NCBI GenBank assembly: GCA_036374795.1 | Contig: DASUTC010000056.1 | Location: forward strand, 1-57,967 | Length of the DNA: 57,967 nucleotides | Reading direction: 5' to 3' | Source of the DNA: Herpetosiphonaceae bacterium | Lineage (GTDB): Bacteria; Chloroflexota; Chloroflexia; Chloroflexales; Kallotenuaceae | Shown: piece after piece, positions 30,547 through 55,230 of the stretch | Numbering within the stretch: the first letter of the stretch is position 1 | How the letters are laid out: each line of letters starts with the position of its first letter | Made by a program: the position numbers and the translations under genes | The notes under the pieces: generated by a model | Told to the model about the DNA's origin: nothing | What the model saw: the letters and a program-made list of their open reading frames with translations, nothing else | Databases searched by the model: none

Positions 30547-30552
30547 TCGGTG

Positions 30553-30576: not shown

Positions 30577-30604
30577 GCACCCTGTGTCGTTGGGGATTGG
30601 TGCG

Positions 30605-31015
30605 ATGTACACCCATCAAGAAGACTTGAATGCCCGTGGCCAGAGCCGGCAGCTCGGCATTTTTACGACCGCGAATGCCGCCGGCGCGGGCGTGCTCGGC
30701 CTCGTCACCTGGCAGCTGACCCGCATCCTGGGGATCACGGGGGATTTTTGGGACGCGCAGTTGTGGGTCCAGGCTGCCCTGGTCCTCGGCGGTGCCGCCC
30801 TGGGCGTCGTCGTGACGTTCCGCTGGAGCGGCTTGTCCGTGCTCGACCGCCTGCTGCTCTGGATCAGCTTTCAGCAGCGCCGCCTGGCCCGGCACACGCT
30901 GATCCGGCCCCAGGCGGCGGTCGCCACCGAATCCGACGACACCATGCCGACGGTGTACCGCGAGGGCGAGGTGCTGCTGCGCCCCTATCGTCCGGAGGAT
31001 GCGCCCTATGGCTGA
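30605..31015 (+). CDS. PrgI/VirB3-like membrane protein
   Basis: 136 residues from ATG 30605; a GTG at 30584 is a weaker option. Two membrane segments near the N-terminus (GAGVLGLVTWQLTRILGI; LWVQAALVLGGAALGVVVTF), then a basic amphipathic stretch (VLDRLLLWISFQQRRLARHTL) and a polar tail. Size, two spans and position directly before VirB4 match the PrgI/VirB3 family, which binds VirB4 at the membrane. It overlaps the VirB4 start by 8 bp. Confidence 0.65.
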   Translation: MYTHQEDLNARGQSRQLGIFTTANAAGAGVLGLVTWQLTRILGITGDFWDAQLWVQAALVLGGAALGVVVTFRWSGLSVLDRLLLWISFQQRRLARHTLIRPQAAVATESDDTMPTVYREGEVLLRPYRPEDAPYG

Positions 31016-36700: not shown

Positions 36701-39700
36701 ATTGCCATTCGTGCGACTCAACACATTGCCCCGCGCATCCCAGGTGGCCTCGCCGAGCACGCCCAGGCTATCCATCACGCGGGCAGGGAACGAGTTGGCG
36801 GTCGGGCTAATCAACAGCGCCTGCCCCAGCGGATCGGTCAGGCTGGTCACGCCGCCGTAGGGCGTATAGGTGTAGCGGGTGGTGTTGCCGAGCGGGTCGG
36901 TGATGGAGGTGCGATGACCCTTGGTACTATACGTGGATGTGGTGGTCTGGCCCAGCGGATTGCGCTCCGCAATCTGGTTGAGATTGCTGTCGTAGACAAA
37001 GCTGGTTGTCCGGCTGAGCGGATCGGTCTCGCTGAGGAGCTTGCCCGCACTATTGAAGGTCGTGATCGCCGTGCCGCCATCCGGCAGCGTGATCCGGGTC
37101 GTGCGGGTGGCGAGATCATAGCTATACCGTGTAGTGTTGCCAAAGGCATCGGTATCGCTCGTCAACCGTCCCTGGGCATCGTAGGTGGCCGTCGCCACGG
37201 TCACCCGGCGGGGATCGACGGCGCTGGTGAGCAGATGGCTGGCGTCGTAGGCGTAGCTTTCGGGCGTCGCAACGCCGGGCCGCGTGACATCGACCAGGTT
37301 CCCTGCCGCATCATAGCTGTAGCGATACACGTTGCCGTCGGGATCGGTCACGGTGGTGATCCGGCCCTGCGCATCGCGCACAAACGGCACGTTCAGATTG
37401 CCGGCGCTGCTGGTGATCCCATCGCGGCTGAAGGTCAGCGTGGTGCCGGTCAACTCCTTGATCGACCGCATCGACCCATCCGCGCCCATCGTATACACCC
37501 GACCATAGGGATCGGTGTAGGTGTAGGTGGTTGGCCGGTAGTCGGTGGACGCTGCGAGGAAGCAGAGCCATTGCCCACCGGAGCGCACGAGCAGCGAACA
37601 TCCGTTGGCGGTGAGGCTCCCATAGACCCCGGCTTCGGGCGTGTAGGCCGGGGTGTAGAGATAGCCAAATATTCCGCCGGACGAGCGTGGCGTGAACGCG
37701 AAGGTCACGCGCTTGCCGCCCGGCTGGGTCAGCGTCACGTTCTTGGCGCTGTCCACCGTGAGCTTCGGACTGCCAACCGTGAGCTTCCACCCATGCCCAA
37801 AGTCGCCGACCTGATGGCGCTCCAGGCTATCGTAGGTGCGCCCGATCGTGATTGGCAGGCCGGTAATCGGCACGGTCAGGTCGGTGAGACTGAAGGCGAC
37901 CCGGCCCGGCTTGTACTCGCCGCTCACCGTCACCTGAATGCCACTATACAGGGTGCGACCATCGGCGCCGGTGGCGCGGAGCCGAATGAGATACGCGCCG
38001 TTGGCAAGCACCGTCGTATCGAGCGTGCCGATCGTGCCGCTGCCGGTGATCTGGGTCGCGATCGTCGTGACCCGGCTGGGATCGTCGACCGGCCAGTAGT
38101 CGAGCGTGCCGTCGGCGAGGGTCATGCCCGGAAGGAGCGTGATCGGCACCCTCCCGCTGATCGCCGTCCCATTCGTCGGACCGGCGATCCAGCCCGGAAT
38201 CGCAAGCTGCGGCGGTGGCGGGACCGGCGTGGGCGTGGGCGTCGGCGTATTGGTCGGTGTGGGTGTCGCCGTTGGCGTGGCCGTGACCGTTGGGGTCATC
38301 GTTGGTGGTGGTGGATCGCGCAGGACCGTGATCGTGACATCATCGCTACTGGTAAGCTGCGAGTCACTGCCCGTGAGTCGGAGGACATAGGTGCCTAACG
38401 CGCTCAGATGCACGCTGGTAGTTGCCTGGGTTGGATCAGTAAAGGTCACGGGCGCTGGCCCACTCACCTGCGTCCAGGCCACCGACACGGTACTGTTGCG
38501 GGGAAAGCCGTCATCACTGACGTTTCCCTGCACGGTGATCGGCGTATCCGCCAGGGCGACCTGGCGATCCGGCCCGGCGTTGACCACTGGGGGATTGTTG
38601 CCGATACCTCCTGGCGTCAGATTTTTTCCGCGGATGGCGAGGCTTAAGAACTGCCCGCGCGAGTCAACATTAATCACGTCCATGCCGCCGGCCTGCTGAA
38701 ATACGCTATGGGAGGCATTACCATTGAGATCGGCGTTGGTCAGACCCATCGCTGCGCCGGCAGGGGTCACGATAATCCCGACCTCGGTCTGATTGAAGCC
38801 GACGGTGCTGATCACAAAGGGGATAAACTTGAATCGATCCCGAGTCGTCCCGGTGTACACGCGGAAGCCGGCACTCCGGTTGCCCGACTCATTGAACGCC
38901 ACCAGACCGCCGCCCGCGTTGACAAAGTTCAAGAGCTCTATCGACCGACTATTCAAGATGTCGAGCTCGTCCTGACGCAACCAGCCGCCATAGTCGGAGG
39001 CGACGACTACGACATCATACGCACTGAAGTTCACGGTGCGGAGGTCAAGCACCCCGGCTGTCCCAGACCCATAATCGGCAAGCGCATAGGAGGTGAATCC
39101 GGCGGCCTGGAGACCGAGCCGCGGGTCAGATTGATCGCCGTTCGGATTGCGCAGATCCGTGACCAACAAGATCTTCGGGTTGGCTTTGCCCCAGGTCACA
39201 TAGGTGATCGCCCGCTGGATAATGTGCTGAGATCCGAGCGCATTGGAGCCCCTGTAGGCGTGATAGTCGGGATCATGCCCGGTGATAAAGATACCGCCCG
39301 GTTGCGTGCTGGCTGGGTTGGCGACGGTGATCACCACATCATCACTGCTTGACAGGGCCGAGTCGCGTGCCGTCAGCCGGAGCACATAGATCCCGGCGGT
39401 ACGGAAGGTGGCGGTGGTCGTGGCGGCACCGGCATCCCCGAAGCTGACGGTTCCCGGTCCGCTCACCTGGCTCCACAGGATCTGCAACGTTCCGTCCGCA
39501 GGCAAACCATCATCGATGGCCCGGCCATCAAGAGCTGCGGTGATGGTCGGGAGGGTCAAGGTTTGATCCGCGCCCGCATCGACAAACGGAGGTTGATTGA
39601 TGGGGGTTGGGGTCGGCGTTGGGGTGTTGGTCGGCGTTGGGGTGTTGGTCGGCGTTGGGGTGACGGTGGCGGTCGCCGTGGGCGCCGCCGTTGGCGTGGG

Positions 39701-40942
39701 GCGCGCCACCGTGATCTGCACCTCGTCAGCGCCCGTGAGCAGACCATCGTCGGCGGTCAGCCGCAGCGTATAGACGCCGGGCACGCTGAACGCGGCGGTG
39801 CTCTCCGGCTGATCCACCGTGCCAAACGTGACCGTGCCCGGACCGTCAACCAGCGCCCACTGCACGCTGAGAGTGGCGGTGGTCGGCAGCCCATCGTCGC
39901 GGACCTCGCCGATCAGCGGCAAGATCGTCAGGGGCGATGGAATGAGCTGATCCGGCCCTGCATCCACGATCGGCGGCTGATTATCAGGCAGGAGCACGAT
40001 CAACACGGTATCGCTGGCTTCGGCCTCGCCATCGCTGGCGGTGAGCCGCAGCTCATACACCCCAGGCGCGCTGAATGTTGCGGTCGTCGTCGCGGCCTGG
40101 GGATCGGCAACGGTCACGGTGCCAGGGCCGGAGACCACGCTCCAGGTCAGCGCCACCGTGTTCGCGGGCAGGCCATCATCCTCTGCGGTGCCTGTGAGCG
40201 CCACGGTGGCTGCGGGGTCGTCGATGCGCTGATCCGGTCCCGCGTCTACCGTGGGCGGCTGATTGATCTTCGGCAGGGCGGGATCGTCACAGATCTGCCA
40301 GCCCAGGAAGCGCGCCGAGATCCGGTGCTGGCCCGGCAACTGATACGCGGTGAGCTGCACCCGCGCAAAGCTGACCACATGATAGCGCGTGCCGCTCCCG
40401 CTCCCGCTCGCCGTATCCCAGACTGGCACGATGCTTTCGACCGCGAGCCGCTGATCCAGGGCCTGGCGCACGGCGCTGCTGGTGCCAACGCCGGTGGTGC
40501 CGCGCACCCACTCGCCGAGCGACAGATGGTGATCCTGCGGATCGTCGGGATTGACATAGGTCTGGCTATCGCCCGGCGGGGTCAGGCTGCGCGCCAGCGT
40601 GGGTGTGTCCTGCTTCCCGGTCCAGGAGAGCCAGCCAAAGTTCCCGGCTCCAGTGCCGTTCAGCATATCGACAAGCTCACTGCCCGGTACGGCCGTGGCG
40701 AGCGTATCTCGGTAAAGGGCGATCGGCGCGAAGGTACAGGCGGTCGGCGTTGTGGCCATGGTCACGGGTGGTGCGGCTGGGGCTGGAGTCGGTGCCGTGG
40801 ACGCTTCGGGGCGCGGCGGGGCAGCGGGGACAGATTCCGTACGGTCCACCGCGGCAGCAGAGCGCGTGGGCGATGCAGGCCACACCGGGAGCAAGACGAC
40901 GATGAACACCAGCGACAGACAGCGATAGACAGCCGTGAGCAT
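33737..40942 (-). CDS. Giant RHS/YD-repeat polymorphic toxin with NucA/NucB-type DNase tip
   Basis: 2401 residues, AAGGA before the ATG. Signal peptide (RCLSLVFIVVLLPVWPAS). PKD-like domains, each opening near NQPP.VDAG.DQ, at about 225, 325 and 450, a ThuA/glutamine-amidotransferase-like segment at about 550-770 (GGIFITGHDPDYHAYRG), a further PKD near 785, a PTPT linker, then dozens of YD repeats (about 1210-2110, RYxYDAxGN type) that form the RHS shell. The RHS core ends GLTYLRARYYNPADGHFLSRDP and YADPSG near 2200. The last 200 residues are the variable tip: SCDEYPFAST-QGG and the following PMTEFRPQG..MSGFY match the DNase NucA/NucB pattern. A secreted nuclease toxin used against competitors or rival elements. 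No immunity gene recognised next to it. Confidence 0.88.
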   Translation of the reverse strand: MLTAVYRCLSLVFIVVLLPVWPASPTRSAAAVDRTESVPAAPPRPEASTAPTPAPAAPPVTMATTPTACTFAPIALYRDTLATAVPGSELVDMLNGTGAGNFGWLSWTGKQDTPTLARSLTPPGDSQTYVNPDDPQDHHLSLGEWVRGTTGVGTSSAVRQALDQRLAVESIVPVWDTASGSGSGTRYHVVSFARVQLTAYQLPGQHRISARFLGWQICDDPALPKINQPPTVDAGPDQRIDDPAATVALTGTAEDDGLPANTVALTWSVVSGPGTVTVADPQAATTTATFSAPGVYELRLTASDGEAEASDTVLIVLLPDNQPPIVDAGPDQLIPSPLTILPLIGEVRDDGLPTTATLSVQWALVDGPGTVTFGTVDQPESTAAFSVPGVYTLRLTADDGLLTGADEVQITVARPTPTAAPTATATVTPTPTNTPTPTNTPTPTPTPINQPPFVDAGADQTLTLPTITAALDGRAIDDGLPADGTLQILWSQVSGPGTVSFGDAGAATTTATFRTAGIYVLRLTARDSALSSSDDVVITVANPASTQPGGIFITGHDPDYHAYRGSNALGSQHIIQRAITYVTWGKANPKILLVTDLRNPNGDQSDPRLGLQAAGFTSYALADYGSGTAGVLDLRTVNFSAYDVVVVASDYGGWLRQDELDILNSRSIELLNFVNAGGGLVAFNESGNRSAGFRVYTGTTRDRFKFIPFVISTVGFNQTEVGIIVTPAGAAMGLTNADLNGNASHSVFQQAGGMDVINVDSRGQFLSLAIRGKNLTPGGIGNNPPVVNAGPDRQVALADTPITVQGNVSDDGFPRNSTVSVAWTQVSGPAPVTFTDPTQATTSVHLSALGTYVLRLTGSDSQLTSSDDVTITVLRDPPPPTMTPTVTATPTATPTPTNTPTPTPTPVPPPPQLAIPGWIAGPTNGTAISGRVPITLLPGMTLADGTLDYWPVDDPSRVTTIATQITGSGTIGTLDTTVLANGAYLIRLRATGADGRTLYSGIQVTVSGEYKPGRVAFSLTDLTVPITGLPITIGRTYDSLERHQVGDFGHGWKLTVGSPKLTVDSAKNVTLTQPGGKRVTFAFTPRSSGGIFGYLYTPAYTPEAGVYGSLTANGCSLLVRSGGQWLCFLAASTDYRPTTYTYTDPYGRVYTMGADGSMRSIKELTGTTLTFSRDGITSSAGNLNVPFVRDAQGRITTVTDPDGNVYRYSYDAAGNLVDVTRPGVATPESYAYDASHLLTSAVDPRRVTVATATYDAQGRLTSDTDAFGNTTRYSYDLATRTTRITLPDGGTAITTFNSAGKLLSETDPLSRTTSFVYDSNLNQIAERNPLGQTTTSTYSTKGHRTSITDPLGNTTRYTYTPYGGVTSLTDPLGQALLISPTANSFPARVMDSLGVLGEATWDARGNVLSRTNGNRHRTTFTYDAVGNVLSETDALSGTTTYSYSLLGLRLSETDALGTTTRSTYDPLGRLLSVTDPLGQVTSYEYDASGNTTAEIDAAGRRTRYEYDATNRLTKVIYPDNTTEQYTYDWRGNRLTETDPAGRITRYEYDAAGQLISTTFTDGAVMQSTVRYSYDATGRPISETDALGHTTTYTYDAAGRVLSITDALGHATTYTYNALGQRVTMTDANGHITRYTYDVRGRLMLTTHPDGTTSRATYDAAGNQVSATDEAGNTTGYRYDAVDRLLAVTNPLGQATSYRYDALGNLTEIADANGHTTGFAYDALQRLTRKTWADGSFEVFGYDVVGNQTSHRLADGQTNTFAYDVVDQLVTATYADGQAVSYTYTPVGERATVTDRRGVTRYAYDYLDRITEIAQPDNRTIRYSYDAAGNRRSLTTAAGTTTYAYDDADRLSSVTDHENATTTYRYDAVGNRTQRSYPNGVVTDYTYDQRDRLIGIMQRNAAQGVIASYTYTLDPVGNRTRVTESDQRTVEWRYNSASQLTSETVRGSSGGLVSQTSYTYDGVGNRLTETVGGQTTAYRYNVLDQVISAGTEQYRYDGRGNLVEIDDGGSVTSYRYDAQDRLTNVTIPGATNASFGYDADGRRVSKTVGGATTNYLWDEVSVYGDVVLETGSSGVLASYVLGDSELVSQTRSGATSYYLADAQGSTRALTDGAGSVTDRYRYTAYGTVEERQGTTVNPYQYTGQQSDAETGLTYLRARYYNPADGHFLSRDPAPVNLRNPIELNRYGYVHGNPINYADPSGLFQVPQPEPKTTTRSGAGGPAGEYAGLLGIIVRIMGALIRLSEEVRCKFQYVTSVIMAVNKDKVGLLILEQIVPKRCIIPIVKYYRKGAGLDETSAHIQAAQDGSYPMLLTFNGLAHADTKNNREEACSYKAKKGLGLKPTNPNKLSCDEYPFASTQQGGADVSIRAVPMTEFRPQGTLMSGFYIRNKMKRGDPFAVIVIP

Positions 40943-42597: not shown

Positions 42598-44196
42598 TCA
42601 GGGACCGGACCCGCCCGCATCATACTGGAGAATGATGATCGTGGAGGTGTCGCTGGTCACCGTAATATTTGGCACGCGGAAGATCGCAAACGGGATGCCC
42701 GCAGGCGGGGTAACGGTCAAGGTGTAGCTCTGACCAGGGGGAGTCGGGAAGAGCCACAGCACCACGTCGCCTGCCGCGTTCGTGACTGTCTCGGGCGCCA
42801 CATAAAAGGAAGACCCGCTGACCGACAGGATGCCCAGGGAGAGCTGATCGATCTTGAGCCGGTGGGTCTCAATCTGGGCTCCGGCAACGGGCAGGCCGAG
42901 GGAGTCCTCGACGTGGACCATCAGACGTTTGAAGGGCAGCACCAGATCCAGCGTGGTGTTCTCCCGCACGGTGAGGGGTGCCAGGTGCCGCGCATCGGTG
43001 GAGAGACGGTAGCGCCCCGACGCGGTCTGCCAGGTGCTTGTCCTGAGCGACCCGGACAGGTCGATGTGGTACGTCCCAGGCGGCACCTCGACGCGAAACG
43101 CGCCCGTGGCATCGGTGGTCTGGAAGACGGACACGGAACCACGGGCCGCGCGGAGATGCACGCTTTGCTGCGCCAGCCCCTGGCCGTGGGCATCCCTCAC
43201 CTGACCGCTAAGGATCACCGGGGCCGGGGCTTGGGGAATCCGCACGACATGGATGGCGGGGTCGGTAGGCACGCCGCCACCAGGCGATGATTCCTGACGG
43301 GGCCGTGGTCGGGAGGTATCCAGGCCCGCGTGCGGAGCCAGTAGGTGCGCCACGGGGCGTTGGCCAGCGGCGACCTGGAGAAACCGGTCAAGCTCGTTCG
43401 GTGGAATCGCGAGACACCGCGCCAGGCGCAGGGCGATCCGCCGTCGGAGAGGCTCCACATCCGCCTCCAAGTTGCGGATCGTGACGTCGGCGCAGTCCAC
43501 GCACCGGGCGAGGTCGGCGTGGGACAAACCGAGCGCCTCGCGGCGGCGGCGGAGCCACGCGCCCAGCGAACCACCCTCTGCATCTGGTGGCTCCCCGGTC
43601 GGAAGCGGTGGAGAAGCGTCCAGGTCCGTGCGCGGAGCCGGTACGGGTGGTACGGAGAGGTCGCCACGCGCCAGTTGGAGAAACCGGTCAAGCTCGTCCG
43701 GTGGAATCGCGAGACACCTCGCGAGGCGCTCGGCGATCTGGCGCGATGGACGCGCAACGTCCGTCTCCAGGTTGCGGATCGTGACGTCGGGGCAGTCCAC
43801 GCACCGGGCGAGGTCGGCTTGGGACAAACCGAGCGCCTCGCGGCGGTGGCGGAGCCACGATCCCAGCGAACCACCCTCCGCATCTGGTGGCTCCCCGGTC
43901 GGAAGCGGTGGAGCAACGTCCAGGCCCGTGCGCGGAGCCGGTAAGCGAGATATGGGGAGTTCGCCACGCGCCACCTGGAGAAACAGATCGCGCACATTCG
44001 GGGGGAGGTCCAGGCAACGGGCAAGGCGCAGCGCGATGTGGCGCGCGGGACGCCGCACATTGGCCTCCAGGTTGCGGATCGTGACGGCTGCACAGCCCAC
44101 ACAGTGGGCGACGGCGATGTGGGTGAGACCCAGCGCTTCCCGCCGCCGACGAATCCACGCGCCCAGCGACGACACCTGCTCATGATCATCGGCCAT
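42598..44196 (-). CDS. Three tandem XRE helix-turn-helix domains fused to transthyretin-like beta domains
   Basis: 532 residues from ATG 44196 (GGGGA upstream); an ATG at 44253 has no ribosome site. Residues about 10-75, 105-175 and 205-275 are three near-identical XRE/Cro-type domains: LG(A/S)WLR.RREALGLS.ADLARCVDC..VTIRNLE.DV, each with a helical follow-up ARCLAIPP.ELDRFLQ. They are linked by PLPTGEPPDAEGG. Residues about 325-530 are beta-rich, like carboxypeptidase regulatory/transthyretin domains (VILSGQVRDAHGQGLAQQSVHL; TTDATGAFRVEVPPGTY). No signal peptide or membrane segment. DNA binding is likely; why it carries extracellular-type domains is unclear. Confidence 0.75.
   Translation of the reverse strand: MADDHEQVSSLGAWIRRRREALGLTHIAVAHCVGCAAVTIRNLEANVRRPARHIALRLARCLDLPPNVRDLFLQVARGELPISRLPAPRTGLDVAPPLPTGEPPDAEGGSLGSWLRHRREALGLSQADLARCVDCPDVTIRNLETDVARPSRQIAERLARCLAIPPDELDRFLQLARGDLSVPPVPAPRTDLDASPPLPTGEPPDAEGGSLGAWLRRRREALGLSHADLARCVDCADVTIRNLEADVEPLRRRIALRLARCLAIPPNELDRFLQVAAGQRPVAHLLAPHAGLDTSRPRPRQESSPGGGVPTDPAIHVVRIPQAPAPVILSGQVRDAHGQGLAQQSVHLRAARGSVSVFQTTDATGAFRVEVPPGTYHIDLSGSLRTSTWQTASGRYRLSTDARHLAPLTVRENTTLDLVLPFKRLMVHVEDSLGLPVAGAQIETHRLKIDQLSLGILSVSGSSFYVAPETVTNAAGDVVLWLFPTPPGQSYTLTVTPPAGIPFAIFRVPNITVTSDTSTIIILQYDAGGSGP
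43330..44170 (-). repeat. Three roughly 300-bp repeats encoding the XRE domains
   Basis: The segments around 43330-43620, 43630-43920 and 43930-44170 are alike in DNA, including identical runs coding for CAP/linker parts. The first domain (nearest 44170) is the most diverged. It indicates recent in-gene duplication. Confidence 0.7.
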
Positions 44197-44572
44197 TGCG
44201 TATTCCCCGGAATGCGGGCGCAGCACCGCAGGATGCTGCGGCAAGATAGACATGGGGGGTGGGCATGCGTGATCACCTGCGATCCATTGTAGCGCGTTTT
44301 GGATACAGTGGGAACACCACTGAACACGTGCATCCGCCAGCGCGGCGTACCGACAGACCCCAACTGCATGGCTGCGCCTGACCGTCGCGATCCCGCACAG
44401 CGCAGCACGCCCTGTTCGTGCGCATCGCGCTACACACGGACAGGTATCCGTGGTGCGCCAAGACCTCCTCGGTGTTCGTGATCAGACATCGGGGCTGAGT
44501 CAGGGAGACACAGCGCTGGCGTCACATCCCCACGCGCGCTGCGCCTGCCTCGGTGCCGTCACGATCGGGATC

Positions 44573-44741: not shown

Positions 44742-47700
44742 ATGCGCTACCGAATCACGGGCCCAATCACCAGCCCCGACGCCATCGTGACGGAGGAACT
44801 GCAGCGTCTGCTGGCGCACGCGGGCACCGTCACGATCAGCACGGTCCTGGTGGGACCACCCTACAAGCCCACGCCGTATGTGGCCTGGGTGATCGAGGTA
44901 CCGGATGCCGTCGCCGAGCTGGTCACGACGAAGGTCTTCCCGATCGTGCTGGGCCGTGACGGAGCCGTCCAGCCGATTGCTGCCATTCCCGATCGCCCGG
45001 AGTGGACGATCCGCGCCCTGCTGCACCCCACCGCTGACGCCCAGCCGCTGCTCGATCTGGACACGTTCCCCTGGGCGTCAATCAGTGTCCAGCTCCACTG
45101 GAAACCGGGTCGCTGTGCTGGACTCGTCCGCGCGAGTGCTGAGGATCGGGAACACCTGCGCCTGGTGCGGGAGCGTGGGTGGACGGCCACCCAGATCCCA
45201 CCGCAGATCCCAGCAGCGGCAGCCAAGCTCGCCCGGCCCGTGCGGCTCCGTGCCTATGGAGGCGCGCCCTGGTTGGGACCGCGCAGCGCACCCAGCGCGT
45301 CCCTCCCTGCGCCCGTCATTCCTGCACCAGCCGCGCCATCTGTCGGTGCGATCGATGCCGGATCTGCCGATCGGCTGACGCCCCCATCCGACGACCACGC
45401 CCTGACGACCACGACCCTCCCAGACATGCTTGCCGCTCCCGGCGCGCCGGGCCTCCTCCTGGGCGTGCAGCCGGATGGGAGTGGCGTGACACTGGCGTGG
45501 CATGCCCTGACGCTCGCCCTCGATGCGCCGCTCGCCCGGCAGCGCCACGCGGTGCTGGCCCTGCTGCGGCGTGCCTTTGCCCAGGGGATGGGCGTGCTGG
45601 CCATCCTGCCCCATCCCCTGCTGACGGATGGGCTGCTCGCGCCGTGGGCCACCCGCATCCGGCTGCTCGATGGGCGCGATCTGTGGGCGAGTGCGGCCAT
45701 TCCCTGGCATGCGCTCGACCGCGACGTGCTCCAGACCATCTTGCAGATGGCAGGCGCGCGGCTGCCGCTGCCTGATCTGCTGCCCGAGCAATTTGCCCCG
45801 CTGCTCGCGCAGGTGGGCCTGGCTGAGTTGGCGACCGATGCGGTGAACGGCTTGACCGCGCGACCGGGCGATGATCTGGCAGGCGTGCTGCTGGCCGGGG
45901 GTGGCGTTGTGCTGGCGGATCAGGGGAATGGGGCCGGGGATCTGCTCGCGAACCTCGTGCTGGCGGCCTGCGCGCCGGCGGGACAGGGGGATCGCCCGCT
46001 GCTGATCATCCGACCCGCGGCGCTCGCCGTGCCGGAGGTCCTGGGGACGCGCGCGATCCAACTGGTGCTGGGCACTACCGCCGCGCATGCCACGATCCGC
46101 GCCGTCGAGGATGGCTGGCACCTTGAATCGGGACTGGGCGGGGCAGCGATCCGCGTGAGCGCCGATCTAACGGCCGAGCCGGCGGGTCTCGACCTGGCGC
46201 TGCATACGTCGCTGGTGACGACGCTCGATGGACCGGAGCACCAAACCGCGGCAGGGCAGGACGATGCGGACGCCTGGTATGCCGGCCAACCGACCACGGT
46301 GGAGCGAGCCGCCGTACTCCCCGGCCAGGCGCATGATCTGCCGGTCGCGATCGCCACGGAAGATCCTGTTCCAGCACTGGATGTGCCTGCCGCCGCGCCG
46401 GTGATTCCGAGCTGGGAAGCACCAACGCCAGCAGCGACCTCGGGCCAGGCCGCAGCACGCATCACGAACGCGCATGCACCAGCGGTGGGAGAAGCTGACC
46501 TACCAGATGCCCTGATGATGCTCGCCGCTGATCCCTTCCTGGGACTTTCGCGTGATGACGTGGCGACGACGGAGCGAGACACGGCCGATCCGGTCGCACC
46601 GGCCCTGGTGGATGCGGAGGATGGGTTCCCCGCGCATGACACTGGCGCGATCGTCGACTCAGGCTCCATGGCTGACGCTGCGGACCTCGTTGGTGCAGCG
46701 GATGACGCGGTCCACCTGGCGGATGCCACCATGAACCTGCACGACGTGTCGCGCACGCTGGGAGCGACACCGGGGGATGCGTTCACACCGGATCTGCTCC
46801 TGGACGATCAGCCCGTCGATCGGCTGCTCGAAGCAGCTCCACTCGGAGGAGCCGACGCGGGAGCGGCATTGGTCCTGACCGATCTCGCGTCGCTCGACCA
46901 CTGGGATGTGGCGCTCCTTGATCCAAACGAGATGACGGGTGGCGATGGCGATCTGCCGCTGGATGACCTGCTGTTCGTCGGTGACGATGCGACGTTCGGG
47001 TTCGACGTGCCGCTGGACGCCGTGCCCGTCGGCGATGATCCGCTCGTGCCGGATGCGTCCCTGCTGGCGGCGATTGCCGCCTTCGACGAGCCGCTGGCGG
47101 AACCCCCTCCGGATCTCCTCCTCGTTGATGCACCCGACCTGTTCCCAGCGGTGCAGGTGACGCGAGCGGACGCGCAGCTGCGGGAGCGAGATCCGGCGCA
47201 CGACGATCTGCTCCTGGTCGCTGCGACCGATGCACCCGTGGCACAAGCGCTGCCGCTGGACGATCTGACCCGTCAGGGCGACGAGACGGGCGATACAGAG
47301 CATCACCCTGTGCCACGCCGATCGCTGCTGGCGGTGCGACCACGGCGCAGATGGACGGCCCGCCCAGCGTCCAGGCGCGACGGAGAACTCGTGGCCGCAG
47401 CTCCGATGGTCACGCGCGCCAACGGGGATCAGCAGTACGAACGCGATCTGCTGGTCATGCCGCCAGCGGCTGCGGCTGACCTGGCTCCCCTGCCCGTCGT
47501 GGTGGATGATCCCACCGATGCTGCTCCGCTGACCATGACCACATCTGCTCCCGACGACGAGTCTTCGATCATGGGCGTGACGAGCAGCGACGAGGCCGAT
47601 GTGCCATGCAGCCCGGTGCTCGAAGGCGTGTTCAGTCCGCCGCCTGCGTCTGGTGCTGAGTCCCTGCTGATCCCCAACGTGGATGCAGCCGATGTGGCGG

Positions 47701-49040
47701 GCCCGATCGGTGGGGATGACTCAGGGAGCACGGGCGACGCGGACGATTCCGTCGCGCTTCCCGCTGGCGCTCGGCTGTGCATGGGCGACATGACCCTGGA
47801 CGGAGCAGCCATCTGGACACGCTGGCGGAGCGGAACCAGCATCCCCGCCATCGTCCGCGATCTGGCGGCGCAGCAGCAGCTCGATCCACGGGCGCTGCGG
47901 ATCGCGGTCAAGGCCCTGATCGACCGATCGCTGGCCGAACGACGGTCGGCGCAGCCCGTCCCCACCCCGATGCCGCCCACGGCACCTGTGCTCGGCGATG
48001 CACCGAATGGCGAAGACCCGTCGGCGCATCATGCCGCGCCGGCCAGCGCGGGGCAGCCGACTGATCAGGTGGTCGCGGCGGGGGCGCAGCCAGATGCTGC
48101 GTTCCTCGACGAAGCCGGCGGGGACGATACACCCGGGGTGCTCCTCGACGCCGTGGCGCACGCTGCGGACGACCTCCCAGCGACCGTGGTTCCCGATGCG
48201 GAGACGAGCGCACGCGAGCGGGTGCTCGTGGAAGATGACGGCATGCTCACTCCAGAGGCCGCGCCGCTCCCACCGGCAGCGATGCTGCCGGACTGGCCGG
48301 ATGCGCGGATCTGGACGACCTGGCAGGCGGGCACGGGCATCCCGGCCCTCGTGCGTCAGATCGCCGCGGCGTGTCCCGATCGTGATCCCACGGCGATTCG
48401 GCAGGTGGTCAAGGCGGTGATCGATCGCCACCTGGATGACCGGAAGCGCGCGGGTGTCTCCCAGGCGTCAGCAGGCGCGGTCCAGCCGTTGGTGTCACGC
48501 CCCGAACCGCTCGCTCGCGTCCAGGATGCGGCAGGGTCAACCACGCAGGCTGCGAACGGCTTGGGCCAATGGAGCAGCAGCCCACCGATCCGCGTCGCGC
48601 CGACCGAGCTGTCTCCTGCCGCCGACGGCGCGTCTAGCGCGGAGGCGCACGATGTGGCGGCGGGGGCGGCGTCCGCATCCGGCTTAACAGCGCACTCCGA
48701 TGACGATGCGATCTGGGCGGCCTGGCAGGCCAGTGTTCCCCTGCCGGACATGATCAGTGACCTCAGCGGCTTCGAGCGCGGTGCCCAGGCCGAGACGGCC
48801 CGTGAGCGGATCTATCAGGTAGTCGTGCCGCACCTGGTGGATGAGCTGGCCGCCTGGGACATCGTGGAGCGCGTGGTCGCGAACCGAAAGCCGCTGCGCG
48901 CGCAGCAGGAACGGTACGAAGATCTGCTGCGCCGGATGAATCGCCAGCGCTATCCCGTCGGCGGCGCCGTCCATACCAAGACGCATGACCGGCTCGTGCG
49001 CATCATGCGTGCCGAGCTGGCGAAGCGCGTCGCGGTCTAA
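44742..49040 (+). CDS. Very large protein of the transfer operon with three C-terminal helical repeats
   Basis: 1432 residues, ATG after AGGAGCG. No signal peptide or membrane span. Residues about 230-450 have the rhythm of a degenerate FtsK/HerA-like ATPase (LLLGVQPDGSGVTLAWHALTLAL; AVLALLRRAFAQGMGVLAILPHP) but the P-loop lysine is missing, so this is speculative. Residues about 460-1000 are acidic and Asp/Leu/Ala/Pro-rich, probably disordered. Three about 45-residue repeats start at 1024, 1190 and 1324: IW(T/A).W(Q/R)(A/S)G...P..VR.(I/L)A, followed by VK(A/V)(L/V)IDR. They look like small helical DNA- or protein-binding modules. The basic C-terminus may bind DNA. Position before the coupling protein suggests a role in substrate recruitment. 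Confidence 0.55.
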   Translation: MRYRITGPITSPDAIVTEELQRLLAHAGTVTISTVLVGPPYKPTPYVAWVIEVPDAVAELVTTKVFPIVLGRDGAVQPIAAIPDRPEWTIRALLHPTADAQPLLDLDTFPWASISVQLHWKPGRCAGLVRASAEDREHLRLVRERGWTATQIPPQIPAAAAKLARPVRLRAYGGAPWLGPRSAPSASLPAPVIPAPAAPSVGAIDAGSADRLTPPSDDHALTTTTLPDMLAAPGAPGLLLGVQPDGSGVTLAWHALTLALDAPLARQRHAVLALLRRAFAQGMGVLAILPHPLLTDGLLAPWATRIRLLDGRDLWASAAIPWHALDRDVLQTILQMAGARLPLPDLLPEQFAPLLAQVGLAELATDAVNGLTARPGDDLAGVLLAGGGVVLADQGNGAGDLLANLVLAACAPAGQGDRPLLIIRPAALAVPEVLGTRAIQLVLGTTAAHATIRAVEDGWHLESGLGGAAIRVSADLTAEPAGLDLALHTSLVTTLDGPEHQTAAGQDDADAWYAGQPTTVERAAVLPGQAHDLPVAIATEDPVPALDVPAAAPVIPSWEAPTPAATSGQAAARITNAHAPAVGEADLPDALMMLAADPFLGLSRDDVATTERDTADPVAPALVDAEDGFPAHDTGAIVDSGSMADAADLVGAADDAVHLADATMNLHDVSRTLGATPGDAFTPDLLLDDQPVDRLLEAAPLGGADAGAALVLTDLASLDHWDVALLDPNEMTGGDGDLPLDDLLFVGDDATFGFDVPLDAVPVGDDPLVPDASLLAAIAAFDEPLAEPPPDLLLVDAPDLFPAVQVTRADAQLRERDPAHDDLLLVAATDAPVAQALPLDDLTRQGDETGDTEHHPVPRRSLLAVRPRRRWTARPASRRDGELVAAAPMVTRANGDQQYERDLLVMPPAAAADLAPLPVVVDDPTDAAPLTMTTSAPDDESSIMGVTSSDEADVPCSPVLEGVFSPPPASGAESLLIPNVDAADVAGPIGGDDSGSTGDADDSVALPAGARLCMGDMTLDGAAIWTRWRSGTSIPAIVRDLAAQQQLDPRALRIAVKALIDRSLAERRSAQPVPTPMPPTAPVLGDAPNGEDPSAHHAAPASAGQPTDQVVAAGAQPDAAFLDEAGGDDTPGVLLDAVAHAADDLPATVVPDAETSARERVLVEDDGMLTPEAAPLPPAAMLPDWPDARIWTTWQAGTGIPALVRQIAAACPDRDPTAIRQVVKAVIDRHLDDRKRAGVSQASAGAVQPLVSRPEPLARVQDAAGSTTQAANGLGQWSSSPPIRVAPTELSPAADGASSAEAHDVAAGAASASGLTAHSDDDAIWAAWQASVPLPDMISDLSGFERGAQAETARERIYQVVVPHLVDELAAWDIVERVVANRKPLRAQQERYEDLLRRMNRQRYPVGGAVHTKTHDRLVRIMRAELAKRVAV

Positions 49041-49109: not shown

Positions 49110-50513
49110 ATGCCCGCCGCCCGTTCAAAACCGACCTCCCAGCCCAAGCCCGTGTCGCTGGCTGCGCGCTACGCGCAACAGGAGCAGCGTCAGGCACTGC
49201 TCCGCCTGGGTGCCGCGCTCGCGCCGATCCTGTTCGTGGTCGTTCCAAAGCTGCCCTCGCCGATCGCCGGGTATGACTGGAAAGCCTGGGTCTGGCAGGG
49301 CCTCGCACCCACGCTGATGCAATCGTTCCCACCGGCCGGCACCGCGCCGATTCCGCCCCAGCCCTTGCTCACGTGGATCTCCGTTGCCTGGGCCGTCGCC
49401 GGGATCTGGCTCATCGGCAGCCAGATCCAGCATCTCATGAGCTTGTACGCGCAGCGCACCCGTCCCCTCACCCTGGAGCGGACCTATCTGCGCCTGCGCA
49501 CGCCGTTTAGCGTGACGCTGAAGCCCGAGGATGGCGTGACGCTGCTGCGCACGCTCCACGGCATCCTGCCCCGGTCCAATCTCCTGCGCGGCGATGGCAC
49601 GCCGGTCGTCTTACGCTGGACCGGGCGGCCCGAGCTAGCGGTGGTGCAGGGCCTGAGCGTGCAGGGACCGCCGACGCTGATCACCAGTCTGCAAAAGGTG
49701 TTTCAGGGCGTGAGCCGGGGTACTAAGGTGGACATCCAGTCCGATCCGCTGCTGGCCGAGCTGAAGCCGGGCCGCGTCATCTGCTGGACCGACATCCGCC
49801 TGCAGGGGCCGGACGCCCTGGCGATTGCGATTCCCGCCCGCGAGAGTCCGTTGCTGAGTGGTCTCCTCCAAACCCTGTCGCCGCTCCGCGACTGTTTTGT
49901 GAGCGATTTCCAGATTCTCCTCCGCCCCGTCGCGGATCGGGTCTGGCGGACGAAGGTGCTGGCCATGCTGGAGCGGCTGAAGCTCGATGCGGCGTCGACC
50001 GAAAAGCGGGTGATGGAGCAGAAAGTCGCCGGCCCGGCCTTCGACCTCCATGTGCGGGCGATCGTGGTGGCGGCCTCGCCGGAGGCGGGACAGACCATGG
50101 TCACGACCATCTGCGCAGCGCTCGCTGCCTCGGCCCAGGCGATTGCGAATGCGGAACAGCGCCTCGTCGCCGGACCCATTCAGGTGCTGCCCGCGGTGAT
50201 TCCCGCGCCGCCACCCTTCCCAGTCACCCGCGCGCGACTTGCCTGGCTCACCGGTCTGATCCTCGCCATGACGGCCTTGGGAGCCGTCTGGTACGTGTCG
50301 AGCACCCCCCGCTCAGCATGGCTGGGACCGGCGATCTGGGTACTTCCCGTGCCGCTCCTGGCCCTGCCGAGAACCGTGCTCGGCACGCTGTGGTACCGGG
50401 GGACGCGGGCCGGTCTGCCGGTCCGTCTCAACACGATCCTCAAGAGTGTCATGCCCGCGCGCAATCCGCGGGTGGTGCCGATCTGGAGCGACTGGCTCGG
50501 CCACCTATCCTAA
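49110..50513 (+). CDS. Membrane protein paired with the coupling ATPase
   Basis: 467 residues, ATG after GAGGAAG. Two N-terminal membrane segments (LGAALAPILFVVVPKLP near 30-50; LLTWISVAWAVAGIWLIGSQI near 85-110), a soluble middle of about 240 residues, and two C-terminal spans (LAWLTGLILAMTALGAVWYV; LGPAIWVLPVPLLALP). Coupling proteins usually carry their own N-terminal membrane anchor; the ATPase encoded next lacks one, so this gene probably supplies it in trans. Family not recognised beyond that. Confidence 0.5.
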   Translation: MPAARSKPTSQPKPVSLAARYAQQEQRQALLRLGAALAPILFVVVPKLPSPIAGYDWKAWVWQGLAPTLMQSFPPAGTAPIPPQPLLTWISVAWAVAGIWLIGSQIQHLMSLYAQRTRPLTLERTYLRLRTPFSVTLKPEDGVTLLRTLHGILPRSNLLRGDGTPVVLRWTGRPELAVVQGLSVQGPPTLITSLQKVFQGVSRGTKVDIQSDPLLAELKPGRVICWTDIRLQGPDALAIAIPARESPLLSGLLQTLSPLRDCFVSDFQILLRPVADRVWRTKVLAMLERLKLDAASTEKRVMEQKVAGPAFDLHVRAIVVAASPEAGQTMVTTICAALAASAQAIANAEQRLVAGPIQVLPAVIPAPPPFPVTRARLAWLTGLILAMTALGAVWYVSSTPRSAWLGPAIWVLPVPLLALPRTVLGTLWYRGTRAGLPVRLNTILKSVMPARNPRVVPIWSDWLGHLS

Positions 50514-50552: not shown

Positions 50553-52613
50553 ATGATCCTCAGCGCCGCTGAACTGGCCACGCTCTGGTGTCTGCCCACC
50601 GCCGACTTCGCCGATCGCGTCGAGCGCGTGATGGCGCAGTGGCTGCCGCCGCCCGCCAATGCCTTTATCGATCCGCAGAACCCGGCCCATCTGTCGATGG
50701 GCCTGGGCGAGCGCAGCGACGGGAGCTGGGCCCCGATCGGGATGCCCTACGACATGTTCCGCTTCATCGCCTGGATCACCGCGCCGATGGGCCGCGGCAA
50801 GTCGGTGATGCTGCTGAACTATATGCAGGGGCTGCTCCGCGCCGGCGCGGGCTTTATGGGCCTGGACTGTAAGGCCAAAGATCTGGTCAATACCACGCTG
50901 CCGATCATCCCCCTGGGCCGCGAGAAAGACGTCACGATCGTCAACCTCGAAGGCTCGCGGATCACCGGCGAAGACCTCAGGCCCGGCATGAACCTGCTCA
51001 GCCCGACGCTCGCAAAGTCGCTGGGCCTGGACCCGTCGATGATGGCCTCGACGGTGCTCGACATCTTTCCGACGCTCGATCCACGCTTCAATGAGGCCGT
51101 CGGCATCAAGCAGTTTGCCAACTTCGGCATGCTGGCGCTGCTCGGCGGCGAGCCGCAGCCGACCCTGATGCATCTGATCCGCTTCTTCGGCGACGAGGAC
51201 TACCGCGCGCAGGTGGTGGGGCGGCTGCCCGGCGCGTTCATCCAGGTGCAGGACTTCTGGGATCGCCGCTTCCCGGAGATGCCGCAGACCCAGCAGGCAT
51301 CGCTGGCGTCGTTCGAGCGCCGCCTCGACCAGCTGATGTCGTTTCCTGAGCTTCAGGCCATGCTGGTTGCGCCGAGTTGCAGCATCGACCTGCGGAAGAT
51401 CATGGACAATAACGGCATCCTGCTGATGGGTGTGAGCGCCAGCCAGGGCCAGATCGCCTCGATCGCGATCACCTTGCTCCTGACGCAGCTGCGCCTGGCC
51501 GCGCTCTCACGCACGAACGTCCCCGAAGCCCAGCGCCCGGACTGGCCGATCATCGTCGACGAGGTCCAGGTGATCGCCAACGATAACATTCCGCTCTTCA
51601 AGACGATGCTGAGCCAGTTCCGCTCGATGCGCATCGGCCAGGTGTATGTCCATCAGGGTCTGAGCCAGCTCGTGTCCGAGGTGATGGGCGCGCTGGCCGA
51701 CAACGCGGGCACGCGCGTGATCCTGGGCTGCGAGGCCGACGACGCCAGCACGTATGCCGGCCTGTATCGGGCGCTGGGCCTGACGCAGACCGACTTTACC
51801 CAGATGGAAGTGCATCCGGTCCACAACTACGCGCTCCACCAGTATCTCAAGCTGGCCGGTCGCGGCAACCTGTTCAGCGCGCAGCCGCTGCCCAAGCCGG
51901 AGCTCATCCAGGAAGATGCGCCGCCGCCGGTGTACCGCAACTGGCGCACGCTGATGGCGCCAGCGGCCAACAGTCGCGAGCGCGACCTGGACGCCTCGAT
52001 CTTGCGCTTCCACGAGCTGGCCAAGGTGCGCTGGGATGAGGCGGTGCAGCGGCTGGGCGCGGTCTGCATGCACAATCCAGCGGCCTTCGACGCCTTCTGC
52101 GCGCGGACCAAAGCCCACCGCCTGGCGCGGCGGCAGTTCATCCTGGATCATCCCGGCTGCGTGCGCATGGACCCCGATCTCGACGGGATAGAGGCGATCC
52201 AGCAGCAGAAAGTTGACCGGATTCGCATCCTGTCGGATCTCGGCTCCGGCGTGCCGAAGCTGGAAACCGAGGCAATGGCGTTCGCGCTGCTGATGGCGTC
52301 GCGCGAGGCGAGCGCGGTTCGCAAGGAGCGGGCGGAAGCCGCCGCCGAGGCCAAGAAAGCGGCGAAAAAAGGTGGTGGGAGTGTGCCGCCCCACCGTGCC
52401 GCGCCAACCGGTCCGCTGGGCGCGCCGACGGCCGAGGAGCTGATGCAGCAGGATACCGTGGCAGCGCTGGCCGCGGAACGCGACCGGGCGACGCGGACGC
52501 AGCTGGACACGATTCCGACGCTCGACGAGCTGATGGCGGCGCGGGGCAAACGGCGCGCGGCCGACGATCTCGTGGGCGGCTTTGAAGGCTTTGAACCGGA
52601 CGCGGACGCCTAG
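50553..52613 (+). CDS. VirD4/TraG-like coupling ATPase without membrane anchor
   Basis: 686 residues, ATG after AAGGAG. Walker A is APMGRGKS at 77-84, Walker B is IIVDEVQ with Asp336-Glu337. The motifs GDLKAKDL-like FMGLDCKAKDLVNTTLP after the P-loop and the VHQGLSQL-x-SEVMGALADNAGTRVILGCE segment match TraG/TraD-type coupling proteins. Hydrophobic spans are absent, unlike typical VirD4. The last 90 residues are charged and helical (KERAEAAAEAKKAAKKGGG), a possible substrate- or relaxosome-binding tail. It would link the DNA-processing complex to the VirB4-powered channel encoded 20 kb upstream. Confidence 0.85.
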   Translation: MILSAAELATLWCLPTADFADRVERVMAQWLPPPANAFIDPQNPAHLSMGLGERSDGSWAPIGMPYDMFRFIAWITAPMGRGKSVMLLNYMQGLLRAGAGFMGLDCKAKDLVNTTLPIIPLGREKDVTIVNLEGSRITGEDLRPGMNLLSPTLAKSLGLDPSMMASTVLDIFPTLDPRFNEAVGIKQFANFGMLALLGGEPQPTLMHLIRFFGDEDYRAQVVGRLPGAFIQVQDFWDRRFPEMPQTQQASLASFERRLDQLMSFPELQAMLVAPSCSIDLRKIMDNNGILLMGVSASQGQIASIAITLLLTQLRLAALSRTNVPEAQRPDWPIIVDEVQVIANDNIPLFKTMLSQFRSMRIGQVYVHQGLSQLVSEVMGALADNAGTRVILGCEADDASTYAGLYRALGLTQTDFTQMEVHPVHNYALHQYLKLAGRGNLFSAQPLPKPELIQEDAPPPVYRNWRTLMAPAANSRERDLDASILRFHELAKVRWDEAVQRLGAVCMHNPAAFDAFCARTKAHRLARRQFILDHPGCVRMDPDLDGIEAIQQQKVDRIRILSDLGSGVPKLETEAMAFALLMASREASAVRKERAEAAAEAKKAAKKGGGSVPPHRAAPTGPLGAPTAEELMQQDTVAALAAERDRATRTQLDTIPTLDELMAARGKRRAADDLVGGFEGFEPDADA

Positions 52614-52661: not shown

Positions 52662-53690
52662 ATGACAGCGATCTTGCCGATTGAAGATCTGATTGGCCTG
52701 GGCGATGAGCGGGACATGGCCGTCCTGCGCGCCCTCGGACGGCTGGAATTTGTCTCCAGCCGCTGGTTGAAAGACGTCTTTTTTCCGGATCAGGGTCGGG
52801 CGACGATGTTTCGCCGCCTGAGCCACCTCGCCAAGCTGGGCGTGATCTGGTACACCCAGACGGCGCATGCCGACGTCACGCCGACCAGGACGGGGCGATC
52901 ACAGCGCACGCTGAAGCTGCCCTACATCTACGGGCTGACCCCGGAGGGCAGGAATCTCCTCGACGCGCTGGATCTGGAACCCTACGCGCCAAGCCTGGCC
53001 GCGCTGCGGACCCGCGACCGCCGCGCGCCGGACGTGCCGAAAGCGCAGCTGGCCCATGATTTGCTGGCCGCCTCCTGGTGTGTCTCGATGATCGACGCCG
53101 TGCGGCGCTGCCCGATGGTCGACGCGATCTTCTGCCACGTCGAATACGTGAGCGATCCCCGGCAGCGCATCGACGCGATCCTGGTGATTCGATTCAACAC
53201 GCAGCAGCGGGTCCAAACGCGCCCGGGCTGGGACATCCCCTGGCATGACGGCTCGCCGGACGGCCCGCAGCATCAGACGGTGCGGCTGGCGCTAGAAGTG
53301 GACCGGGGCACCGAGCCGCTGAAGGTGCTGCTGGGCAAAGGCTTGATGTACCGGACGCTGACGGCGGAGCGGGTGTATCACCAGTTGCTGGGCGGGCCCG
53401 TGCTGCCGGTGTTTCTGGTGCCGCCGGGCAAGCGGGCGGCGCAGATCGCGCGGGAATGGCAGGATGCTTGGCCGGGTGGACCGGGCGTGATCTCGACGCC
53501 GAGCAAGGCGACCCATCCGGTGTATGGGGCGCTGTGGGGCGAGTATCTGACGCTGAAGGACGTGCCGCCGCAGCGGGCGAACCTCCTGGGATCGCTGGTG
53601 GCGTCGCCAGACGCCTGGGGGACGCTGGTGGCGGCGTGGATGCCGGAAGTGCCCGGACGACCCGCGCTGGTGCCTGCGAATGGCCGGTAA
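52662..53690 (+). CDS. Replication-relaxation family protein
   Basis: 342 residues, GAGGA upstream. Residues about 15-70 are a winged helix (DMAVLRALGRLEFVSSRWLKDVFFP, ATMFRRLSHLAKLGVI), and residues 90-240 hold YGLTPEGRNLLDAL, QLAHDLLAASW, a DAILVIRF strand and LALEVDRGTEPL....K..MY. This is the Replic_Relax architecture found next to coupling proteins on Gram-positive plasmids. The acidic D..L / EVDRG..P / K set resembles a PD-(D/E)XK nuclease-like fold, so strand nicking is conceivable but not shown. Last gene of the second operon; followed immediately by phased repeats. Confidence 0.75.
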   Translation: MTAILPIEDLIGLGDERDMAVLRALGRLEFVSSRWLKDVFFPDQGRATMFRRLSHLAKLGVIWYTQTAHADVTPTRTGRSQRTLKLPYIYGLTPEGRNLLDALDLEPYAPSLAALRTRDRRAPDVPKAQLAHDLLAASWCVSMIDAVRRCPMVDAIFCHVEYVSDPRQRIDAILVIRFNTQQRVQTRPGWDIPWHDGSPDGPQHQTVRLALEVDRGTEPLKVLLGKGLMYRTLTAERVYHQLLGGPVLPVFLVPPGKRAAQIAREWQDAWPGGPGVISTPSKATHPVYGALWGEYLTLKDVPPQRANLLGSLVASPDAWGTLVAAWMPEVPGRPALVPANGR

Positions 53691-53695
53691 GTCAT

Positions 53696-53803
53696 GCGAC
53701 AACCGATGCGACAACCGCGAGACAACCGCGAGACAACCGACGCGACAACCGATGCGACAACCGCGAGACAACCATGAGATAACCGTGAGACAACTGCGAG
53801 ACA
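53696..53803 (+). repeat. Ten-copy 11-12-bp repeat array, GACAACC type
   Basis: GACAACC or close variants (GATAACC, GACAACT, GACAG) start at 53698, 53710, 53721, 53732, 53744, 53756, 53767, 53778, 53789 and 53800. The spacing is always 11 or 12 bp, close to one turn of the helix, so a protein bound to each copy would lie on one face. It begins 6 bp after the replication-relaxation stop codon. Confidence 0.8.
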
Positions 53804-53963
53804 GAAGATGGGGTTTCGGCGCTCCCAGACAGGCGAAACCGTCCGACGGGTATACGTGGATTCGGCCCCAACAACACGGTCCGATCCGCAGCTCAGATGG
53901 GCCGGTCCGGCTCCGAGGTCAGGCCAGGCAGCCCGACGATTCGCGCTGCTTCGGCCATGCGAT

Positions 53964-54078
53964 CTGCCATGCGCTGCCATGCCCGGCCCTGCTGCTGCGC
54001 TACCTTGCATTGCCTTTGCCGTGCAACTGCATTGCTCTGCAGTGCATCTGCCATGCACCGGCAGTGCGGTTGCCCTGC
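53964..54078. repeat. Second phased array, TGCnnTGC type
   Basis: TGCnnTGC occurs at 53965 and 53975, then GC/TGCnnTGC copies start at 54006, 54017, 54028, 54038, 54049, 54060 (as GGCAGTGC) and 54071. Spacings are 10 or 11 bp. Many copies are near-palindromic (TGCATTGC, TGCCGTGC, TGCAGTGC). Confidence 0.65.
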
Positions 54079-54446
54079 GCGCCACGCGAGGCGATGCCTG
54101 GGGACGCACGCGATCCCACTCCCGGGGGAAGCACGGAGCATCCGAGCGCTAGCGAGGGAGCGCGCGTGCGCACCCCCGGTGGGAGCAGCGCACTCCTGGG
54201 TCCGCGCGGCCGTCCATGGCGGGGAGCAGACCCTCGTCGGCAGAATCCGGGTGGCGCGGGCAGGTCGGTGGGAGGGCAGGGGCAGGTCGGCAGGCGGGCA
54301 GAGCGGCAGTGGGATCGCGCGCGTGCCAAGTGGCGAGTGCGAACGAGCATATCGGCAAGCGTGGCACCGTGAGGAGTAGGAGCGCGTGCGATCCTGGTGC
54401 AGCGAGGATGTCAGCAGCATTTGACGGGCGGGATTGTTGGTTTATA

Positions 54447-54531: not shown

Positions 54532-55230
54532 ATGTCCAGCTTTAGAACACACATGCTGATCGGTGCGGTTGGTGGTCTGGCGCTCGCACGCTGGTTGGAG
54601 CCCAGCCAGGTACTCCCACTACCGAGCGGCGTCTGGCAAGTGGGTACGCCCTATGTGCCGCTGGGCTTGACGGGCGTTGGCCTCATCGTCGGTTCAGCGG
54701 TTGGGTGTACGTGGCCTGACCTGGATGAATCGGGATCGTGGCCTGCGCGCAGGCTCAAATCGGCGGTAGCGCTGGTCGCCGCGCCGCTGGTCGGCGTGGT
54801 CGGCTATGCCCTCGCCGTGCAGGGACGGGTCGTGCTGCGCCCGGAGCTGGCGGCGGCCCTGGGCATCCTCATCGGAGCCCTGCTCCTCGGGCCGGCGCTG
54901 GGCTGGCTGCTGCTCCGGCTCATTCGCGTGGGCGCGGGCGGGCATCGCCGACTGACGCATAGCCTCGTCGTGGGCGGCCTGCTGGCCGTGCTGGCGGAGG
55001 TGCTGTGGCGGGGCGACCAGCCGGTCTGGGCGCTCGTCCCGGCGGCGCTGGCGTGGTTCCAGGGGCTGCATTTAATCGGCGACCTCGTGACGCCAAGTGG
55101 CGTCCCACTCATGTACCCGATCAGCGCGCGCGACGTGGGGCTGCCACGGCCGCTCTCCAGCGTCGGCGAGTCCCTCATCACGATCGTTGCCCTCGGCGTC
55201 GGCTCCTGGCTCGTTTGGGGTGGCTCATAA
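54532..55230 (+). CDS. YdjM/DUF457-type membrane-bound metal-dependent hydrolase
   Basis: 232 residues, ATG after AAAGGAG. FRTHMLIGAVGGLAL, GCTWPDLDESGSWPARRL, GGHRRLTHSLVVGGLLAVL and LHLIGDLVTPSGVPLMYPIS carry the family's metal-binding H, PDLD, HR..THS and H..D motifs. Five or so membrane segments. The family (LexA-regulated YdjM in E. coli) is thought to act on membrane phospholipids, substrate unproven. Here it has its own promoter beside the candidate transfer origin, so it may be a stress- or transfer-related function of the element. Confidence 0.85.
   Translation: MSSFRTHMLIGAVGGLALARWLEPSQVLPLPSGVWQVGTPYVPLGLTGVGLIVGSAVGCTWPDLDESGSWPARRLKSAVALVAAPLVGVVGYALAVQGRVVLRPELAAALGILIGALLLGPALGWLLLRLIRVGAGGHRRLTHSLVVGGLLAVLAEVLWRGDQPVWALVPAALAWFQGLHLIGDLVTPSGVPLMYPISARDVGLPRPLSSVGESLITIVALGVGSWLVWGGS

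Follow-up and report, generated by a model that had tools for sequence, protein, structure and literature searches.

A probable divergent MOBC relaxase and its putative origin of transfer

Positions 52662-53806, together with the conserved core behind them, very likely constitute the DNA-processing module of a conjugative element, i. e. a divergent MOBC relaxase and an origin of transfer. They lie in a stretch of 57,967 nucleotides from a Herpetosiphonaceae bacterium (assembly GCA_036374795.1, contig DASUTC010000056.1), hereafter called the window. The 342-amino-acid protein encoded here is most likely a divergent MOBC relaxase, and together with the array of short repeats behind its gene it would form the start of DNA transfer. 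The features of the module and of the surrounding transfer region are the following:

30999-33371, plus strand: VirB4-like ATPase (VirB4-like NCBIfam model, E 8e-17)
44742-49040, plus strand: large transfer protein, earlier called VirB6-like; position conserved, no informative Pfam match
49110-50513, plus strand: conserved neighbour of the coupling protein, no function assigned
50553-52613, plus strand: VirD4/TraG-like coupling ATPase, directly upstream of the relaxase gene; weak but concordant TraG/VirD4 matches
52662-53690, plus strand: MOBC-type relaxase gene (PF13814), 342 amino acids, identified by HMM, models and residue alignment
52710-52859, plus strand: codons of the winged helix (residues 17-66), besides the C-terminal tail the most divergent part in comparison to the paralogue C347
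53698-53806, plus strand: array A, ten GACAACC-type units spaced 11-12 bp; probable binding site of the relaxase, as judged from the sequence
53808-53948, no strand: conserved core between the arrays, common to the window and the loci C347 and C184 of the same genome; probable nic region
53812-53818 / 53834-53840, no strand: inverted repeat GGTTTCG / CGAAACC at the start of the core
53843-53858, plus strand: CCGAC....TATACGTG block; CCGAC and TACG are kept in the three loci of the genome
53943-54078, plus strand: array B, built of TGC-based units at distances of about 10-11 or 21 bp
54532-55230, plus strand: gene for a YdjM-like membrane protein (PF04307), which is a conserved neighbour downstream of the putative oriT region

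The initial annotation had described a conjugation module without a recognisable relaxase. However, the 342-amino-acid protein belongs to PF13814 (Replic_Relax; E 9e-14, 52.4 bits with a curated cut-off of 25.3), the Pfam family of MOBC relaxases, which CONJscan scores as its MobC superfamily (PMC5357655). The relaxase of the enterococcal plasmid pAM373 reaches 27.1 bits with the same model. MOBC relaxases are kin of the PD-(D/E)XK restriction endonucleases, and their prototype, TraX of pAD1, bears an N-terminal winged helix (PMC12857230). The structure prediction that had been proposed for the protein of the window yielded a similar layout, an N-terminal winged helix (about residues 7-66) and a probably PD-(D/E)XK-like nuclease domain (about residues 127-298), with a pLDDT of 84 for the AlphaFold2 model of the whole protein and of 88 for the nuclease domain modelled alone. 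With Z values of up to 10.5, the winged helix resembles proteins of the MarR, HxlR, ArsR and TubR types, and the nearest solved structures of the nuclease model are mainly PD-(D/E)XK enzymes: BstEII (Z 7.6 over 127 residues), the nickase Nt.BspD6I (7.2) and FokI (6.6). These nuclease matches are moderate, with every Z below 8, so that the assignment draws on all of them taken together and on the residue set. Foldseek returned no E-value below 0.001 for either the whole-protein or the nuclease model, and a sequence search for a solved structure of the relaxase found none.

The acidic, PD-(D/E)XK-like residue set noticed earlier is indeed conserved: D171, E212-x-D214, E218 and K226 are kept in all intact-type homologues examined. 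D171, E212 and D214 align with D152, E170 and E172 of the enterococcal relaxases, which are invariant in the seven enterococcal MOBC proteins compared and presumably coincide with the active-site residues of TraX. Profile-profile comparison with the enterococcal MOBC proteins gave an E-value of 8e-5 and a probability of 62% for residues 17-163 only, which cover the winged helix and the beginning of the nuclease; the nuclease domain alone gave an E-value of 0.07 without an alignment, and the identity to the pAM373 relaxase is about 20%. With significance confined to this N-terminal portion, the protein probably represents a distant branch of MOBC.

Further relaxase families were searched one at a time across the whole genome: The HMMs of the HUH families MOBP, MOBQ and MOBF and those of MOBH and MOBT had no match anywhere in the genome while their controls worked. 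The MOBV model was likewise silent, but so was its control. The search for classical relaxases that had been suggested for the complete element thus extends to the genome the earlier remark that no MobA/MobF/MobP-type relaxase was seen, as far as MOBP, MOBQ, MOBF, MOBH and MOBT are concerned.

Among the other transfer proteins that had been named, VirB4 was recovered by its family model and the coupling ATPase by weak, concordant matches. The VirB2-like protein (30016-30546) has a weak TrbC match below the cut-off (E 0.011), and for the presumed PrgI-like protein a Pfam search of 30550-31023 detected no PrgI. The transfer region holds further frames. A 2401-codon open frame runs on the minus strand (33737-40942) within the plus-strand transfer region, and a minus-strand gene between VirB4 and the large transfer protein (42598-44253) encodes a protein with three HTH_31 domains, which are specified by 300-bp tandem DNA repeats (43319-44169).

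Array A and the conserved core

Array A begins 7 bp downstream of the relaxase stop codon, rather than 6 bp as first stated. This array had been described as ten GACAACC repeats at 11-12-bp spacing. The spacing is 11 or 12 bp throughout, but only seven units are exact (starts at 53698, 53710, 53721, 53732, 53744, 53756 and 53767); the remaining three are degenerate, i. e. GATAACC at 53778, GACAACT at 53789 and GACAGAA at 53800. Counted as a plain word, GACAACC occurs 8 times in the window against 5.3 expected, which is no enrichment. The phased array is far above chance: It forms a chain of nine copies (at most one mismatch, 11-12 bp apart) versus a maximum of two in 60 dinucleotide shuffles, and among 615 background windows of 700 bp four copies occurred in ten, five in three and more than five in none. 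In pAD1, oriT contains five direct repeats that are bound by TraX and lie 70-120 bp from nic (PMC12857230). Because PF13814 corresponds to MOBC and TraX binds direct repeats in oriT, a phased array is the binding site to be expected beside the relaxase gene of the window.

Three related relaxase loci are present in the genome: the window, C347 (91% identical) and C184 (56%). The array behind the relaxase consists of CAYAACC-type units in C347 and of CGCACGG-type units in C184. The 140-bp core, in turn, keeps CGC.CCCAGA, CCGAC, TACG and GATCCGC.GCTC.GATGGGCC in all three loci; the GGTTTCG/CGAAACC inverted repeat is shorter in C347 and was not seen in C184. An EM motif search for a nic-like core shared across genera did not clearly beat shuffled sequences and picked another sequence, and the CGAC-type core that can be seen by eye is therefore only a lead. 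An 8-base match between the cores of the window and of the enterococcal plasmids (TCGGCGCT) was discarded as chance; it is absent from the cores of C184, L112 and L113.

A second, TGC-based block (53943-54078 in the window, 2832-2926 in L018) lies behind the core at the window, C347 and C184. Since the unit of array B, unlike that of array A, is similar in the paralogous loci, array B may be read by a protein other than the reader of array A.

At the C184 locus (L071, relaxase at 3267-4529 on the minus strand), the array and the core are present, but the 49110-type gene is reduced to a remnant, and the stretch read contains no coupling-protein match. This locus may be a mobilisable element dependent on a helper.

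Phased arrays behind relaxase genes of the Chloroflexales

A single-sequence search of genome contigs, viral contigs and PLSDB plasmids revealed no close relatives of the relaxase; homologues were found by a whole-genome search of the order Chloroflexales and a profile search. The gene order common to the homologues, some loci lacking individual members, is VirB4, large transfer protein, 49110-type protein, coupling ATPase, relaxase and YdjM-like protein, and the non-coding stretch with the array sits between the last two. Phased arrays, mostly of unrelated units, were found behind at least eight Chloroflexales relaxase loci including the window. Outside the genome of the window, units at 11-12-bp spacing follow the relaxases of G013 (GGCGCGA, five units), G017 C50 (GGCGAGA, four), G043 C112 (CCGAGCC, four) and G060 (TTCGCTA, six); by eye, arrays were also seen in G075 (GCGC[AG][CT]AG) and, weaker, in G057 and G017 C46. 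No clear array was present behind the relaxases of G043 C147, G080, G018 and G043 C109. Of 17 relaxase copies, the window among them, 7 are followed by an array of at least four units at 11-12 bp, compared with 13 among the 615 background windows (Fisher p about 1e-7, computed with 7 of 16, the conclusion being the same for 7 of 17), and three of these seven loci, the window, C347 and C184, share ancestry. In one of the sister elements (L099), the 11-12-bp array is followed by a further one, with about eight units (CGTGCTCATCGTCGCCCCG) at intervals of 18-19 bp; it lies about 300-440 bp past the relaxase stop, which is at 6250 on the minus strand.

The winged helix changes with the array

Two observations connect the array to one particular part of the relaxase. 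First, in the comparison of the window with C347, pN is 0.142 in the winged helix versus 0.028 in the nuclease while pS is equal, a fivefold difference; among the paralogues, divergence of the C-terminal tail is as fast as that of the winged helix. Second, in a pair of Enterococcus faecalis plasmids (L114 and L115, 1950-3283) the nuclease is identical at 150 of 151 residues, whereas the winged helix is identical at only 36 of 66 (p 2e-17). The core DNA of these plasmids is identical, and their arrays differ (TGGAAA versus TAGAGTA). From the sequences, this looks like a natural exchange or a rapid divergence of the winged helix. The winged helix thus varies with the array while the nuclease and the core stay constant, which argues that the array is very probably read by the winged helix and that the core is probably cut by the nuclease.

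Degenerate paralogues in sister elements

The element of the window has a single, intact copy of the relaxase. In G013, G017, G075 and G060, one or two paralogues follow the relaxase gene in which D171 is replaced by G and E218 and K226 are lost. Degenerate copies of this kind keep the winged helix and E212-x-D214 (D-x-D in L105), and they are located as follows:

L097, 7339-8640: degenerate relaxase paralogue
L098, 9019-10197: degenerate relaxase paralogue
L099, 6250-7518, minus strand: degenerate relaxase paralogue
L100, 1956-2993 and 3956-5143: two degenerate relaxase paralogues
L105, 10453-12072, minus strand: degenerate relaxase paralogue

The paralogues of the four genomes and a single copy in G043 form one clade (support 99/100), and most of the degenerate copies come directly after an intact relaxase gene and precede the array. 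Between G017 and G075, which have different arrays, the winged helix of the intact copy is 86% identical and its nuclease 82%; for the degenerate copy, the values are 66% and 78% (p 0.1). This hints that in the sister elements the array might be read by the degenerate copy. It is tempting to speculate, and we regard this as a tentative and rather doubtful generalization, that MOBC relaxosomes are two-part readers in which an exchangeable winged helix goes with the array and a constant nuclease with the core, and that in the sister elements these parts are split between the intact relaxase and a pseudo-relaxase. In such a two-part reader, the winged helix and the helically phased array would change together and set the identity of the element; in the split version, the pseudo-relaxase encoded beside the array would recognise oriT and its intact partner would cut.

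Possible mechanism and alternative functions

From this anatomy, we infer the following course of binding, nicking and transfer. At the 11-12-bp repeats, copies of the relaxase would dock by their winged helices, all in register and on the same side of the DNA. Such docking would load the metal-dependent PD-(D/E)XK domain onto the adjoining constant core (53808-53948), some 40 bp past the array, where one strand would be nicked. The VirD4-like ATPase, whose gene lies just upstream, would then take over the nicked strand for passage through the VirB4-type channel. Covalent DNA intermediates have not been observed for MOBC relaxases, and it is an open question how these enzymes recruit, hold and religate the strand (PMC12857230).

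Three other functions of the array have to be weighed, and all of them are less likely because of the conjugation genes in the neighbourhood, the conserved nuclease residues and a better candidate origin at 1390-3696. The array might be a set of iterons at a replication origin and the protein a replication initiator: The spacing is iteron-like, the Pfam family carries the name replication-relaxation, and winged helices are common in Rep proteins. Yet the nuclease residues are conserved, the coupling protein adjoins, the enterococcal transfer regions have the same anatomy, and the contig encodes a better candidate in the DnaA_N-domain protein at 1390-3696, which recurs at C184 and C347. We therefore consider a replication origin behind the relaxase gene improbable. 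As to that protein itself, the DnaA_N domain is C-terminal, and its gene holds TGTCGC repeats at 2148-2422, with TGTCGCC units every 10-12 bp or so and then inverted pairs of the form TGTCGCT...AGCGACA; the arrangement resembles that of a replication initiator whose gene has an origin nested in it.

Slightly less probable still is that the array serves merely as an operator for self-repression of the operon and that nicking occurs elsewhere. Relaxosome proteins often autoregulate, and the N-terminus of the relaxase has a repressor-like fold, but the position of the array, past the relaxase stop codon and in front of the conserved core, speaks against this function; autoregulation may exist alongside the oriT function. 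Finally, a centromere bound by a TubR/ParR-like partition adaptor, as suggested by TubR of pBM400 among the winged-helix matches (Z 9.5 over 83 residues) and by the direct repeats of about 12 bp in TubR-type centromeres, is the least probable function, given that the protein has a conserved nuclease domain and that its conserved neighbours are conjugation genes among which no partition motor or tubZ-type gene was recognised.

An origin of transfer beside a MOBC relaxase is thus the reading that we prefer. Its anatomy is common from Enterococcus to the Chloroflexales, and the joint change of winged helix and array beside a fixed nuclease and core provides a testable rule for oriT specificity, while phased arrays offer a way to find oriT beside PF13814 genes. 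Moreover, the second copies with lost catalytic residues suggest a division of labour in some elements, with one paralogue for recognition and another for cutting.

Comparison with known MOBC systems

The closest parallel is found in enterococcal plasmids. pAM373 is classified as MOBC in PLSDB, its relaxase is annotated as a replication-relaxation family protein, and six units at exactly 12 bp lie between its coupling-protein and relaxase genes, followed by a large inverted repeat. All seven enterococcal MOBC plasmids examined have a coupling protein, a phased 11- or 12-bp array, a conserved core and the relaxase; the unit of the array differs from plasmid to plasmid, and one of them has only three clean units. 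Another member of the family, MobC of CloDF13, which stands for the MOBC relaxases of Gram-negative mobilisable plasmids, is listed as MOBC of the restriction-endonuclease type (PMC12857230), and the annotation of the CloDF13 plasmid record contains no relaxase labelled MobC. The TubR-tubC system likewise uses a winged helix (Z 9.5 to 4asn) but has neither a nuclease domain nor a link to conjugation genes.

The systems of pAD1 (TraX) and pAM373 share with the window a PF13814 protein with an N-terminal winged helix and a nuclease that in the window, too, is probably PD-(D/E)XK-related, the adjoining coupling-protein gene, and an array of short direct repeats, spaced 11 or 12 bp and with a unit peculiar to each element, in front of a conserved core that contains inverted repeats. 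Since the module of the window is built like the system of the enterococcal plasmids, it is most likely a divergent member of a known system, MOBC relaxase with oriT, and not a new one. The initial annotation had proposed a protein with its own binding array and possibly a novel relaxosome or nicking system; the anatomy agrees with a binding array and a part in a relaxosome, and the novelty does not stand. The differences lie in the details: The array comprises about ten units in the window versus three to six in the enterococcal plasmids, it follows the relaxase gene rather than lying between coupling protein and relaxase, the acidic motif is E-x-D rather than E-x-E, the protein is longer, there is a second phased block, and the cores have no detectable similarity. 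What is new in comparison to the known MOBC systems is therefore the divergent branch in the Chloroflexales, the length of the array and its position 3' of the relaxase gene, the second, TGC-phased block, and, in the sister elements, the degenerate tandem paralogues that have lost catalytic residues.
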